Assembly (NCBI GenBank): GCA_026418015.1
Contig: JAOACE010000009.1
Span: 124,001-188,000 of the forward strand
Source: Leptospiraceae bacterium
GTDB taxonomy: Bacteria; Spirochaetota; Leptospiria; Leptospirales; Leptonemataceae
DNA length: 64,000 nucleotides
Reading direction: 5' to 3'
In this document: positions 1,475 to 8,235 of the stretch, in pieces
Numbering within the stretch: position 1 is the stretch's first letter
How the letters are laid out: each line of letters begins with the position of its first letter
Position numbers and translations under genes: made by a program
The notes under the pieces: generated by a model
The model's database searches: none
Told to the model about the DNA's origin: nothing
The model's input: the letters and a program-made list of their open reading frames with translations, nothing else

Positions 1475-2611
1475 TTAACATACATCTCTACTCTCAATAA
1501 TATCTATTATGCCATTAAAAGCATACTCTGCTGATTTTCTTCCTTCAGAAGGTTTATGTAAATGTATTAATCCTGCATCAATCAAACTTTTTAAAACATT
1601 ATTCGCAGTTATTCTATTGGGTATACCTGTCATTTGAATGAAATTCGCCGTGCTTATTATCGGCTGTCTAAAAAACGCATCAAGAGCAGGAATAGCATAT
1701 TGAGATTTAGTAGCCTGTATAAATTTATCTTTCATCTCATTATAAAGATTCAAATGCTTTTGAGCTTTATCAGTATTTATTTTAGCCTGCTGGATGACTG
1801 CCGTTAAAAAGAAATCTATCCAACCGCTCCAATCATTATTTTTAGTTATCATCAACAATCTATCATAATACTCAGTTCTATTTTTTTCAAAATACTCACT
1901 CAAATAAAAACTTGGCCTTGAAATTAGCCCCTTCCAATACAAAAACAAAGGAATTATAAGACGCCCAACTCTGCCATTACCATCTTCAAAAGGGTGAAGA
2001 ATCTCAAACTGAGCATGCAATAAACCAAGCTGGACGATTTTATCAGGATAATCATCAGATTTTAAAAAGCTTTCCCAGTATTCAAGATGCTCTGATAAAA
2101 TAATAGGGTCTGGTGGTATGTATCTTGCATTTTCAATTGGTTTTCCGGGTGTACCAATCCAATTTTGAGTTTTTCTAAATTCACCAAGTAACCTATACTT
2201 TCCTCTTACATCAGTTAATAAAATCTTTTGAAACTCTTTAATTAAAGATAAAGATAAATCTCTATACTGAACCGCCTGAGAGCCATAGATTAAAGCCTTT
2301 TTATAGTTTAAAACTTCTTTCAAATCCTCTTTTAAAGATTGAGAGATATTTTTGGGAGTTATTCCAGCCTCTTCTTTTAAAACATCTTCAAAGCTTGCCT
2401 GCGTTCCTTCAATTCTGCTGGATAATACGGCTTCGTTTGTTGTTAATGGGGCAAGTAAAATGTCTGGATTTGGTAATGCTCTCAATATTCCATCAAATAG
2501 AGCTACTCCTCTGTTTGCTTCTACTATCTTTTTTATAAAAGGTTCTAATTTTAAATCTTTTGGCGGAAACTCTAATGGTATGTATGGCTTTGATTTACTC
2601 ATTTCTTGCAT
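1475..2611 (-). CDS. Fic-domain protein with N-terminal inhibitory helix (putative AMP-transferase)
   Basis: 378 residues. A Fic N-terminal region carries SSRIEG at about 64-69, matching the (S/T)xxxE(G/N) inhibitory helix of self-inhibited Fic proteins. The core has a full catalytic motif, [12 protein letters not shown], at about 206-217. The C-terminal ~90 residues look like a winged helix ([19 protein letters not shown]). Fic enzymes usually transfer AMP from ATP to a Ser, Thr or Tyr of a target protein; the intact motif suggests activity that is held off by the Glu. The start overlaps the hsdM stop by 17 nt, or by 8 nt if the ATG at 2602 is used, so it is probably translationally coupled to hsdM. 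Position inside a restriction-modification operon suggests a linked or guard role; this is inference. Confidence 0.88.
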
Positions 2612-5036
2612 ATCCCAACTTTTCGAGAAAATCCTCTAATTTTTTTACTTCCTCATCTCTTTCTTCCCTTAATTGCGTCAGAGAAATTTTATATTTGTCC
2701 CAAAGGTTTTCGAAGATTTTGGTTAGTTCTTTTTTTTCTGCATTTAGGTATTTTTCGAGGTGTTGGTTTATGATTTCGTAAAACTTTTCTAAAATCAATT
2801 CCTCTGCTTCTTTATATGTTAAAGAATCCCTCTTTTGTTTTATTTTATCCTCTAAGTCTTCTTTCATTGACTTTAATTCTTTGTTTAGTTTCTTTAATTC
2901 TTTGTCTTTGTTTTCTATTTTCTTGATTAACTCTTCCCATTTCTTTGCTTCTTTCATTGCGGATTCTTGTTTATTGGAACGAAGGTCTTTTACAAGATTG
3001 TTTAGGTAAATTATCACCTTACCTGATGTTTTTTGTCCTTGCTCTTCTTCGTCCCAGTCTTCTATTTCTTCGAGGATTTCGTTTAATTCGCCTTCAACCT
3101 CTGAAATTTTGCTTTCTTGCTCTTCGATTTTTTTTAAATCTTCTGCAAAAAATTTCTTTGCTATTCTCTCATCCTCAATCAGTCTACTGCTCCAGCCCGA
3201 AGAAACAACAGTTTTAAAATCGTATTTTAATTCTTCCCACCAGTTGACAAATACACCTGCAATTTTAAATTCATCAAGAACACCTAAGGGAAGAAGTTTT
3301 TCTTTAAGGCTTTCCAGTGCTTTATTCCTGAATTTCCAAAGGTTATTGTTTCCGGGAAATTTTTTTATTTCTTCACTAACCTCAGACCACCATTCCTTTA
3401 GCTCTTGGAAGTAAGTAGAAAATTTATTTATGACACCTTGATGAGAATCTACAATTCCGTTTATATCGCTTTTGTCTTTGATATCTTCTCTGAATTCTAT
3501 AGTTATACTATCTTTTTCTACCAACAAAGAATTTATTGTAAAACCTAATTTTTCTATTTGTGTTTTGTAAGTTTCAATCTCTTCTTTTGGCACACCTCCA
3601 AAGATGTGATAGTGCACAGATTCTATTTCGGGGTCGGGAGAGTTATCAACATACCTACGAATGTTTAAGTTAAAATCGTTTTCTTTAATCTCTTTAATAT
3701 CTACCAACCTTGAATATTTAGGTATTTCTAATTTTCTTTCGAAGACAGTGACTATTTTTTCAATATCTTCGGGTCTTAGGTAATTTTGGTTTCTTCCTTC
3801 GCCGTATTCTCTATCTGCATTTATAAAAAAGATTTTATTTTTGAGTTCTGGTGATTTTCTTTTATTTATAACAACAATGCACGCGGGAATCCCTGTATTA
3901 TAAAACAATTTTGATGGAAGTCCAATGATTGCTTCTATTAAATCGTCTTCAACAATTCCTTCTCTAATGACTTTTTCTTGCCCACCGCGAAACAAAACAC
4001 CATGTGGCATCACTGTTGCCAAAATGCCCGTATCTTTTAGAGAAGCGATCATGTGTTGTAAAAACATCAAATCTGCTTTTTTGCCTGTTTCGGGAGTAAA
4101 TCCATATTTAAACCTTTCTGGATATTCCATATTTGCAGTTGAGTAGTTTTGGGAAAACGGCGGATTCGCTAAAACTCTATCGAATCTTTTTATGTAGCGA
4201 TTTTCCACAAATTTAGGTGCAACAAGTGTGTCTTCGTTCTCTATGTGTGGGTCGGATATGCCGTGAAGTATCATGTTCATTTTACAAATTGACCAAGTGA
4301 CACCGTTTAACTCCTGCCCATAAAGTCCTAAATTTCTTGCATCTTGCCCGATTGCTTCTACATATTCTCTTGCTTCTATAAGAAATCCACCAGAACCAAC
4401 AGTGGGATCATAAATCGTCATTCCTTGCTGAGGTTTTACCAGCCTAACCATAAGAGTTTTTACGTGCGTAGGTGTATAAAACTCGCCGCCTTTTTTGCCA
4501 GCTGAATCTGCAAACTCTTTTAGTAGGTATTCGTAAGCAGCACCTAGCAAATCGGGAAATTCAAAATCTTCGTTTCTTAACCTATATTTATTAAAGTGAT
4601 GGATTAAATCTACAAGCTGCTGATCTTTAAGCTTGTTTTTTCCTTTTACTGCATTAAAGTCAATATGCTTTAAAACACCCTCTAACGAGGGATTTGCTTC
4701 TTCCAGAGCAGCAAGGGCTTTGTTGAGTTCATTCCCTACATCTGTTTTTAAATTTAAGATATTTTTCCATCGCGCTCGTTCGGGAACAAAAAAGGTATCG
4801 TAATAAAAATTTGGATCTTCGAGTAACTCTTCTAATTGTTCTTTTGAGTATTGTTTGGAGAATTGATTGATGATTTCTTCTTGTTTGGCTTCAAATACAT
4901 CCGAAAGCCGTTTTAAAAAAAGCATACCAAAAATGTATTCTTTGTATTCCGAAGCATCCATCTTACCTCTTAAAATATCCGCTGCTTGGAACAAATGTGT
5001 CTCAAGCTGACTTAATGTAATCTTACCGTTATTCAT
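2595..5036 (-). CDS. hsdM: Type I restriction-modification DNA methyltransferase subunit HsdM
   Basis: 813 residues. The HsdM N-terminal domain (about 5-150) is followed by an N6-adenine methylase domain with FYTP (186), the AdoMet-binding motif DPTVGSGGF (about 210-218) and catalytic NPPF (about 291). The protein is longer than the common 500-550 residue HsdM: roughly residues 480-813 are a charged, Glu/Lys-rich coiled-coil extension seen in a subset of the family. With HsdS it would methylate adenine in a bipartite site. The start has a good ribosome site (ggagt 7 nt upstream). No hsdR lies within the window; it may lie past the left edge or be missing. Confidence 0.93.
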
Positions 5037-5802
5037 TATTATACTCCTTTTTTATAACGCGTTTAATAACACTTTACGAATACATCAACACTTGTTAATA
5101 AGATCGATTTTTTTTTGATTGATTTGAACATTTTACCTCCCTTATAAAGTTTTTTTGAATTTATTTTTATAATTTTATTGATTTTTTTTATCTTAAACGT
5201 CAAGCATAAATTAAGATGAAGAAAAGATTTTGTTTTTTCTAGATGTTGCAGTGTAATTAAAGAGATATCGCAAAATGTTTATTAGAAATGTTGTGCTACA
5301 AATAAGCGATTTCGCGAAGATTTACACCCAAAAGATATAATGGGAATAATGCGCGCAATGTAAATATGATAAGATGCGATAAAAGTTGACGCGGTGTAAT
5401 GGAATAGCCTATCGCGATGTTGAAGTAATATTTTCGCGAGAACGATATACATAATTGAGCGATGACGCGATGTTGTTGTGATAAACGATACGGCGAAACG
5501 ATAACTCGATGTTAACGCGATATTGTCGCGACATATTTGCGTAATTGAACGATGGTGCGATGTTGGTACGTTTTGCAAAGTGATATTAACGATGTCGCGA
5601 TAAATCAAAAGCGTTAAATTATTGCAACCTATGGCGTAATTTACATCAAATCGTAATATGGTATAATCATCGACCATATGTGAGCAATTGTGCAATATAG
5701 AAAGAAGCGCGGCATGTAGTATAGATTCAATCTTCTTTTTGCTCGCGCTCTAAACGTTTTTTATTATTTTATCCTAATCCTAATTATGATTTTTTCAACG
5801 TA
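5037..5802. other. 766-bp non-coding region between hsdM and lon
   Basis: The hsdM-proximal part (5037-5280) is AT-rich and holds the hsdM ribosome site and presumably its promoter. From about 5290 to 5640 the sequence changes character: GCGAT, CGCGA and CGATGTT recur many times in a setting that is otherwise poor in G+C. A 137-codon minus-strand frame exists here (5282-5695), but its make-up (His, Arg, Thr and Ile rich, no domain, no ribosome site seen) argues against coding. The last 100 bp before lon are AT-rich with no clear terminator. Confidence 0.6.
5411..5600. repeat. Two imperfect direct repeats of about 91 bp, GCGAT-rich
   Basis: Aligned anchors: CGATGTT at 5415 and 5507, CGCGA at 5435 and 5527, and the block TAATTGA-R-CGATG-NN-GCGATGTTG at 5452 and 5542. 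The 28 bases starting at 5451 match those at 5541 with about six mismatches. Further partial motifs (agatgcgataaaa near 5373, aacgatgtcgcgataaa near 5588) flank the two copies. The function is not recognised. Confidence 0.65.
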
Positions 5803-8235
5803 TTACCATCCTTCTCGTTCTAAATAAACAGTTTGTTTCGAACGAAATGCTTTTGGTACGGTTCTTTTTAATAAATCCATCATGTTGGAATAATATTCTA
5901 CGTTTAATCCGCTTCTGATTTCTTCGGGTATTTCTTCGAAATCGGATCGATTTTTTTCTGGTAGTAGAACAGTTTCTATTCCAGCTGCTTTTGCAGCTAA
6001 TACCTTTTCTTTAATTCCTCCAACGGGTAGAATTTTACCTCGTAAAGAGATTTCGCCAGTCATCGCGATATTTTCTTCTACGGGTGCATTTGTTAAAAGA
6101 CTTGCTAATGCTGTTAAGATAGTAACACCTGCGGATGGTCCGTCTTTGGGTACAGCACCACTTGGTACATGAATATGAAAATCAAAATCTGTAAATAAAT
6201 AGTTTGCTATACCTAATTCTTTTGCATGTGCTCTTAGATAAGAGAATGCCAATTGGGCAGATTCCTTCATTACTTCGCCTAATCTTCCAGAAAGTTTTAA
6301 ATTTCCTTTACCAGGATATTTGGTAGCTTCGATGTATAAAATATCGCCGCCTACGGGTGTCCAGGCAAGTCCTATAGCAACACCAGAAATTCCAATATTT
6401 TCTTTTATATCTTTTTGGAATCTTTCTTTTCCTAAATAAGAACTAACATGATTTTCATCAACTACAATAGGTAATTGAATTTGATTTTTGTTTTCTTCGA
6501 TTTTTAAAGTGACTTTTCGCGCAATAGATTCAATCATTCTTTTTAAGTTTCTTACTCCAGCTTCTCGTGTGTAATTTTCTATGATTTTTTTAATCGCGTT
6601 ATCGGTGATGATCCATTCTTGTTCTGATAAATTGTATTGCTCTCTTATCTTAGCAATCAAATGATTTTTTGCTATCTCTATTTTTTCTTCTAATGTATAA
6701 CCAGATAATTGAACAATTTCCATTCTATCCAATAATGGTAATGGTATAGTATCGAGTGTATTTGCTGTAGCAATAAAGATCACTTTGGATAAATCGTAGG
6801 GTAAGCCTAAATAATGATCATCAAAAGCATGATTTTGTTCGGGATCTAAAACCTCTAATAAAGCAGCTGCTGGGTCTCCTTGGTAAGAAATGCTCAACTT
6901 GTCGATTTCGTCTAACAAAAATACAGGAGAAATGGATTCTGCTTTCTTCATTGCTGTAATGATTTTACCCGGCATTGCACCAACATAAGTTCTTCGATGG
7001 CCGCGAATTTCTGCTTCGTCTCTTACACCGCCCAATGAGGCACGTACAAAGGGACGATTCATACAACGTGCAATAGATTTCGCGAGAGATGTTTTACCAA
7101 CACCAGGAGGGCCAACCAAGCAAAGAATCGGTCCTTTGATATTTTTTGTTTTTTTCTCTACAGCTAAATGTTCCAAGATTCTTTTTTTGACTTCTTCCAA
7201 TCCCTCGTGATCTTCATCCAATATTTTTTTGGCTTTTTCTATATCGATGGATTCTAACTCTTTTTCTAATTTACTTTGTTCATCCTCTACATTCCATGGT
7301 AATTCTAATACCAATTCGATCCAGTTTCTAATTTGAGAAGCTTCTAATCCTCCACCTTGTGGTCCTTCGACTAATCGTCTATATCGTTTAAATTCTTTCT
7401 CGACTGCTTTTTTTACGTATTCGGGCAATTTTTTTTCTAAGATTCTTTTTTCTAACTCGTCTGCATCGCTAAAATCTGTTTCTCCCAATTCTTTTTTGAT
7501 AGTTTCTAACTGCTTTCTTAAATAGAATTCTTTTTGCAATTTAGCGGCATCTTGTTCTACTTTTTCGCGAACCTCTTTTTCCATGATCAATCTTTGTGTT
7601 TCGTCCAATAAATATTTTTTTGTATAATCCAACTTTTCTTTAATAGAATCTATCTTTAAAAATTCGATTTTTTCTTCGTTGGTTTTGTTAGAAAAAAAGA
7701 TTACTTGGTTTGCCAATGCAGAAGGGTTTTTAATTCGTTTTATGTAATTTACTACTTCATCGGGAATCAATGGATTATTTTCTATGTATCTTACAACATA
7801 GGTTTGAAATTCAATTACATCATCTTCTGTATAATTTTGTATTTCGAATTTTGGTTTAATCCGTCCTTTTAAATAGGGATTATCTGTTACTATTTCGAGT
7901 AGCTCAATTTTTTGCACGCCTTGTAGAAAGACCTGAAATCCACCTTCCCCCATGGGTATAACGCGATGGATTTCTGCTAATGAACCTATTCGAAACAACC
8001 CTTCTATGTCTACTTTTTCGTCTTCGGGATTTTTTTGTGTAAACACTCCTATTAGTGCACCTGGTTTTCCAAATTCTTCTATTAGTTTGATGGATTCTAC
8101 TCTACCTACAAAAATTGGTAATAAAATACCAGGAAATACTACTGCATTTCTTAAAGGTATAACTGGTATAATTTCGGGTATATCTTGCTGTTTGATTTCT
8201 GTTATGTTTTGATCATTATATCTTATTAAACCCAT
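5803..8235 (-). CDS. lon: ATP-dependent serine protease Lon
   Basis: 810 residues, the normal length for LonA. The N-terminal substrate-binding domain (about 20-215) starts PVIPLRNAVVFPG. A coiled middle region follows, then an AAA+ ATPase with Walker A GPPGVGKT (375-382) and Walker B VFLLDEIDK (438-446). The C-terminal protease domain has Ser701 in KDGPSAG and Lys744 in GGIKEK, the Ser-Lys catalytic pair. It degrades misfolded and regulatory proteins in the cytoplasm. It stands alone: 766 bp of non-coding DNA lies downstream and 173 bp separates its start from the bactofilin gene. A ribosome site (aggagg region just upstream of 8235) supports the start. Confidence 0.97.
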   Translation of the reverse strand: MGLIRYNDQNITEIKQQDIPEIIPVIPLRNAVVFPGILLPIFVGRVESIKLIEEFGKPGALIGVFTQKNPEDEKVDIEGLFRIGSLAEIHRVIPMGEGGFQVFLQGVQKIELLEIVTDNPYLKGRIKPKFEIQNYTEDDVIEFQTYVVRYIENNPLIPDEVVNYIKRIKNPSALANQVIFFSNKTNEEKIEFLKIDSIKEKLDYTKKYLLDETQRLIMEKEVREKVEQDAAKLQKEFYLRKQLETIKKELGETDFSDADELEKRILEKKLPEYVKKAVEKEFKRYRRLVEGPQGGGLEASQIRNWIELVLELPWNVEDEQSKLEKELESIDIEKAKKILDEDHEGLEEVKKRILEHLAVEKKTKNIKGPILCLVGPPGVGKTSLAKSIARCMNRPFVRASLGGVRDEAEIRGHRRTYVGAMPGKIITAMKKAESISPVFLLDEIDKLSISYQGDPAAALLEVLDPEQNHAFDDHYLGLPYDLSKVIFIATANTLDTIPLPLLDRMEIVQLSGYTLEEKIEIAKNHLIAKIREQYNLSEQEWIITDNAIKKIIENYTREAGVRNLKRMIESIARKVTLKIEENKNQIQLPIVVDENHVSSYLGKERFQKDIKENIGISGVAIGLAWTPVGGDILYIEATKYPGKGNLKLSGRLGEVMKESAQLAFSYLRAHAKELGIANYLFTDFDFHIHVPSGAVPKDGPSAGVTILTALASLLTNAPVEENIAMTGEISLRGKILPVGGIKEKVLAAKAAGIETVLLPEKNRSDFEEIPEEIRSGLNVEYYSNMMDLLKRTVPKAFRSKQTVYLEREGW

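Follow-up and report, generated by a model that had tools for sequence, protein, structure and literature searches.

Long unbranched rods occur among bacterial RNAs, 6S RNA (RF00013) being one, and imperfect direct tandem copies in an intergenic region are typical of degenerate bacterial minisatellites and iteron-type arrays. The locus described here shares the imperfect direct tandem copies between genes with such arrays; unlike them, it has a period of approx. 92 nt, 65% identity between copies, an odd composition and no replication gene among the neighbors examined. With 6S RNA it shares the long unbranched rod, which is predicted in our case. Identity with 6S RNA was rejected, as the genome carries its own 6S RNA elsewhere (C27:48607-48785, E-value 1.7e-12) and Rfam gives no match to the block at gathering score. 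Structured RNAs of bacteria are often located in long GC-rich intergenic regions (PMC8632094). Like the RNAs of the GC-IGR pipeline (PMC8632094), the locus is a long intergenic region, non-coding and GC-rich within a GC-poor genome, with a predicted structure on one strand; it differs in having no homologs, hence no covariation, and in being a single locus.

The window, i.e., the whole stretch of DNA analyzed (64 kb, C26:124001-188000), belongs to a 2.9-Mb genome which is 97.9% complete. Features are listed in Table 1 in positions of this window. We conclude that the block is a real, odd, single-copy, lineage-specific patch of degenerate tandem repeats.

Table 1. Position, strand and basis of the features discussed in the text.
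Feature	Position	Strand	Basis
hsdM, first gene of type I restriction-modification operon	2595..5036	-	Pfam N6_Mtase, HsdM_N; PADLOC MTase_I
CpG/GCGAT-rich non-coding block	5290..5647	+	CpG o/e, CGAT bias, CpG rank, no Pfam match for ORF across
Outer extent of predicted rod	5291..5724	+	118 nested pairs, 23 G-U
Inner predicted RNA rod	5358..5647	+	MFE -81.9 kcal/mol, 101 nested pairs
Degenerate direct repeat copy 1 (5′ arm of predicted rod)	5410..5501	+	self-alignment, shuffles
Best conserved repeat core, TAATTGAGCGATGACGCGATGTTG	5452..5475	+	3-mismatch search of 392 genomes
Degenerate direct repeat copy 2 (3′ arm of predicted rod)	5502..5592	+	self-alignment, shuffles
Core, second copy, TAATTGAACGATGGTGCGATGTTG	5542..5565	+	3-mismatch search of 392 genomes
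Partial further repeat copy	5593..5641	+	overlapping end of same self-alignment
Promoter-like TTTACA-16-TATAAT	5640..5667	+	consensus scan, 11/12 matches
lon protease (name assumed)	5803..8235	-	90% identical to gene of Leptospiraceae bacterium KatS3mg129

Composition and tandem repeats of the block

The intergenic region containing the block is 754 nt long, ranks fifth in GC content among the 27 intergenic stretches of at least 250 nt and has a CpG o/e of 2.57; both values are high for this genome. Positions 5290-5640 hold 34 CpG dinucleotides (o/e 2.75 vs. 0.98 for the 64-kb window), and AG, CT and GG are strongly depleted there. When 18,350 segments of 250 bp from 464 kb of the same genome were compared, the top CpG count fell on the block (29 per 250 bp), followed by non-overlapping segments with 17 and then 16, one of the latter (5701) adjoining the block. 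CGAT occurs 14 times on the plus strand of 5290-5640 and once on the minus strand. The density of GCGAT, CGCGA and CGATGTT words which the first-pass annotation had reported is confirmed. The same plus-strand stretch contains 8 of the window’s 49 GCGAT, 7 of its 47 CGCGA and 4 of its 7 CGATGTT words. TCGCGA has 23 sites in the window, five of them in the block, where base composition gives an estimate of approx. 5; exceeding this expectation in the window, the word appears to be favored genome-wide and not in the block alone. A coding sequence was rejected: the 137-aa minus-strand ORF across the block (TTG start) lacks a Pfam match at gathering score, its two matches (E-value approx. 0.05) both being below the cut-offs. 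CGAT positions in the block show no period of three.

In the best self-alignment, 5410-5546 is matched to 5502-5641 over 144 columns with 65% identity at an offset of 92 to 95. The score of 64 obtained for 5290-5640 was reached by none of 400 dinucleotide and none of 400 trinucleotide shuffles (maxima 50 and 52, respectively); thus, the repeats are not explained by word composition alone. A weaker, candidate self-alignment joins 5241-5301 to 5384-5442 (67%, 63 columns). Accordingly classed as a tandem array, with adjacent direct copies beyond chance, the block comprises approx. 2.5 overlapping copies with a period of 92-95. Two imperfect direct repeats of approx. 91 bp had been proposed at first; their anchors are real (CGATGTT at 5415 and 5507, TCGCGA at 5434 and 5526) and the repeats stand, but not as two isolated units. 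Tandem Repeats Finder reports no array at the block, the copies being too degenerate, and an ungapped repeat finder recovers just 46 nt at 72%. When 392 genomes were searched with up to three mismatches allowed, the 24-base core turned up at its two own sites and at one three-mismatch site in another genome (G262). A CRISPR array was ruled out, as the copies are 65% identical and 92-95 apart, and none was reported by Tandem Repeats Finder. Composition and repeats are demonstrated by these results.

Genomic setting and searches for relatives

The block lies beyond the 3′ end of a putative lon gene and upstream of a type I restriction-modification operon; lon (ending at 5803) and hsdM (starting at 5036) are both on the minus strand. 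Identity between the Lon protein and its counterpart in the MAG Leptospiraceae bacterium KatS3mg129 is 90–92%, which shows the host organism to be a close relative of this reportedly hot-spring-derived MAG. In the congener G003, Lon is 91% identical. In KatS3mg129, the gene of a presumably aminotransferase-like protein follows approx. 1.4 kb after lon, whereas it is found approx. 13 kb off in the genome studied (C26:115459-116724), so that block and operon together form an insertion relative to KatS3mg129. The block lies at the lon-side end of this approx. 13-kb restriction-modification island, which the closest relative does not have at this place.

The operon is ordered hsdM, a Fic-domain gene, hsdS-type genes, the gene of a 589-aa protein, hsdR and the gene of a 233-aa protein, the latter without a PADLOC match. 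In this operon (window 1475-5036 and L106:13660-19935), the Fic-domain gene is placed between hsdM and hsdS, and the 589-aa gene beside hsdR has weak matches to defense models. HsdM has relatives with 86% and 68% identity in a different family of the phylum. Their upstream DNA (L072, L073) contains no such block by eye, for which reason the block was rejected as a part of the restriction system; the earlier idea of a site cluster for the neighboring methylase is weakened by the same absence. It was also rejected as an ancestral neighbor of lon, since the DNA following lon in three congeners (G001, G002, KatS3mg129) differs and, by eye, does not contain it. A 22-codon open frame with GGGAGG 5′ of it was seen by eye on the minus strand (5063-5131) in the stretch separating the block from hsdM, 26 nt ahead of the start of hsdM; it possibly encodes a leader peptide.

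Using BLAST in its own genome, the block matched itself, and the 14 other matches all had at most 31 bits. A dispersed mobile repeat or MITE, which would be present in multiple copies, was rejected because the block is single. Among 61 genomes (its own and 60 relatives), BLAST detected no homolog; one 21-nt identical match in G034 (E-value 0.002) is taken as chance. When the core 226 bases were searched against 392 genomes of the phylum, the own genome alone matched at an E-value of 0.001, and plasmid and phage sequences yielded no match to the block. A covariance model built from the block alone recovered itself exclusively in the 61 genomes. Rfam produced no match at gathering score in the 64-kb window and five sub-threshold matches in 5037-5802, which are at chance level (lowest E-value 3.1), and the window contains no detected tRNA or tmRNA. 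A trinucleotide score trained on the block revealed no second block in the 400 kb of stretches scanned, its next-best matches being in foreign loci, e.g., L026 and L051. Across the genome, a triple-CGAT pattern has 10 sites in forward and 9 in reverse orientation; the block accounts for three of these, and one overlapping pair is located at C6:18273-18348. On the far side of the island, L106:12722-12870, containing a few GCGAT words, was rejected as a family, as its relatives match just an AT-rich part of the query (approx. 99-143). Four stretches of viral contigs with an exact 17-mer match were discarded as well, the flanks of the match being dissimilar by eye.

The absence of detected relatives is therefore demonstrated for these collections, and a remnant mobile repeat, one of the options raised initially, is not upheld: the block is single in its own genome, and no copy was detected in the 391 further genomes of the phylum sample, in plasmids or in phages. 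That the repeat unit is single in the genome and not conserved in relatives are two outcomes which the first-pass annotation itself had listed as counting against its proposal. No searched resource matches the block, yet a new kind of system is not proven. As an observation apart, SRP RNA models (RF00169, RF01854) had no match at an E-value ≤ 1 in the own genome, and the same models matched in 13 and 10 of 14 control genomes; SRP RNA is either missing from the 97.9%-complete assembly or divergent.

The predicted plus-strand rod and its controls

For an RNA transcribed from the plus strand, a single long rod is predicted, imperfect and rich in G-U pairs. Its two arms are repeat copy 1 (5410-5501) and repeat copy 2 (5502-5592), paired with each other, and the hairpin loop lies between them. 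Predicted energies for 5358-5647 are -81.9 kcal/mol on the plus strand and -50.6 kcal/mol on the minus strand, and those for 5291-5724 are -116.1 vs. -80.3. The plus-strand fold of 5280-5725 reaches -116.5 kcal/mol with 118 nested pairs, 23 of them G-U. Compared with dinucleotide shuffles, the energy of 5290-5640 is unremarkable (z -1.0; 18 of 100 at least as low), and that of 5291-5724 was equaled or surpassed by 8 of 300. The nesting depth of the rod (5291-5724), counted within limits taken from the fold itself and hence overstated, is rare (3/300 and 0/300 shuffles). Under DNA folding parameters, neither strand beats shuffles (z -0.43 and 0.05). Overall, the stability of the rod is close to what composition gives.

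Since repeats with self-pairing words form rods anyway, a control preserving the repeats was used: the copies differ at 27 of 89 aligned columns, and at these the two bases were randomly swapped from one copy to the other, leaving divergence and composition unchanged. On the plus strand of 5358-5647, 12 of 500 swaps were as stable and 1 of 500 as deep, whereas on the minus strand no effect was seen (172/500 for stability, 195/500 for depth). The corresponding counts for 5410-5600 were 28/500 and 1/500 (plus) vs. 63/500 and 240/500 (minus). With arms fixed, none of 500 swaps reached a score counting G-U, and of 500 trinucleotide shuffles 2 did so; for a score counting A-C, the minus-strand equivalent, the numbers were 348 and 120 of 500, respectively. 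These tests, like those of depth, are overstated because limits and arms were taken from the fold. Counting Watson-Crick pairs only, the arms are weakly complementary, and 44 of 500 trinucleotide shuffles did as well. When G-T and A-C were scored equally in aligning the arms, the optimum held 29 G-T and 9 A-C.

The test to trust is the position-free one, in which each control picks its own best stem place. Here, the G-U score was reached by 2 of 400 swaps and the A-C score by 392 of 400. Dinucleotide shuffles reached the stem score itself in 13 of 400 cases and trinucleotide shuffles in 19 of 400, and 68 of 3,628 strand-windows of the own genome were as good. A depth scan in steps of 150 framed the block poorly, its best block window having a depth of 71. 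A strand- and wobble-specific phase of the copy differences is thus demonstrated and would point to selection on a plus-strand RNA. The structured RNA suggested at the outset is partly supported, by the strand- and wobble-specific pairing seen in the swap controls; the folding energy alone is unremarkable, and neither homologs for covariation nor an Rfam match were detected.

A promoter consensus scan of the region returned 6 sites vs. 4.3 expected, i.e., about chance. The best site, TTTACA-16-TATAAT, sits at the rod's 3′ edge, from which transcription would run toward lon and not into the rod; a weaker plus-strand site (5321-5350) falls within the outer rod, immediately ahead of the inner rod. 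A convincing promoter into the rod was not found by the consensus scan, nor was a terminator found by scanning the region. These expression signals give poor support for a simple RNA gene.

Origin and possible role of the block

Our leading reading, tentative and unproven, is that the block represents a lineage-specific non-coding element giving a plus-strand rod RNA. An old, now degenerate tandem duplication of an approx. 92-nt unit would have built it. Transcription would most likely proceed on the plus strand, away from hsdM and toward the 3′ end of lon, and the product may be a stand-alone structured or regulatory RNA beside the restriction-modification operon.

Close to this reading, somewhat doubtful but still a serious contender, stands a neutral explanation. 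The block would be a decayed tandem repeat (an old minisatellite) of odd composition which was gained or amplified along with the restriction-modification island and has no function, and the rod would be a by-product of words such as CGATGTTG which self-pair via G-U. That the block is single and undetected in relatives, that its copies are degenerate and contain indels, that the rod is just mildly unusual under position-free controls, and that all of this is located in an island which the closest relative lacks here would fit such an origin. However, drift does not predict a phase of copy differences favoring plus-strand wobble pairing, and the extreme CpG content and strand bias have persisted despite 35% divergence between copies.

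We consider it unlikely that the block is a series of directly oriented sites occupied by a DNA-binding protein which regulates the hsdM operon or acts in replication or partition. The candidate site would be the core TAATTGA-N-CGATG-N3-CGATGTTG, where the two copies are best conserved; the copies all point the same way (CGAT 14:1), and the block is upstream of the hsdM operon. On the other hand, good copies of the core number just two, the HsdM systems with 86% and 68% identity are without such an array, and wobble-specific pairing is not predicted by protein binding. Still less probable is a once-perfect, transposon-like inverted repeat decayed by C-to-T changes mostly on the plus strand, leaving G-T mismatches without RNA selection: the excess of 29 G-T over 9 A-C mismatches between the arms, the G-rich plus strand and 8-nt terminal inverted repeats at the ends of 5358-5647 (ATGTAAAT/ATTTACAT) suit it, but the weak Watson-Crick complementarity (44/500 trinucleotide shuffles), arms which are also direct repeats and the lack of another copy in the genome do not, and CpG-sparing decay cannot account both for C persisting mainly in CpG and for G following 15 of 24 wobble T.

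Extending the plus-strand rod RNA further, one may speculate about an undescribed kind of bacterial RNA, i.e., an unbranched wobble-rich rod of approx. 290–430 nt derived from a tandem-duplicated self-pairing unit, its gene and a type I restriction-modification operon being set back to back and the RNA acting together with this defense island; we regard this as improbable. Should the block indeed produce an RNA, tandem repeats would have given rise, in one lineage and beside a defense operon, to a long rod-shaped RNA, which might illustrate how new genes for structured RNAs come into being. Should it be a repeat in decay instead, it would be a caution that impressive rods form unaided from word-rich repeats whose units self-pair, and that only location-free and copy-swap controls reveal how little such a rod needs selection.
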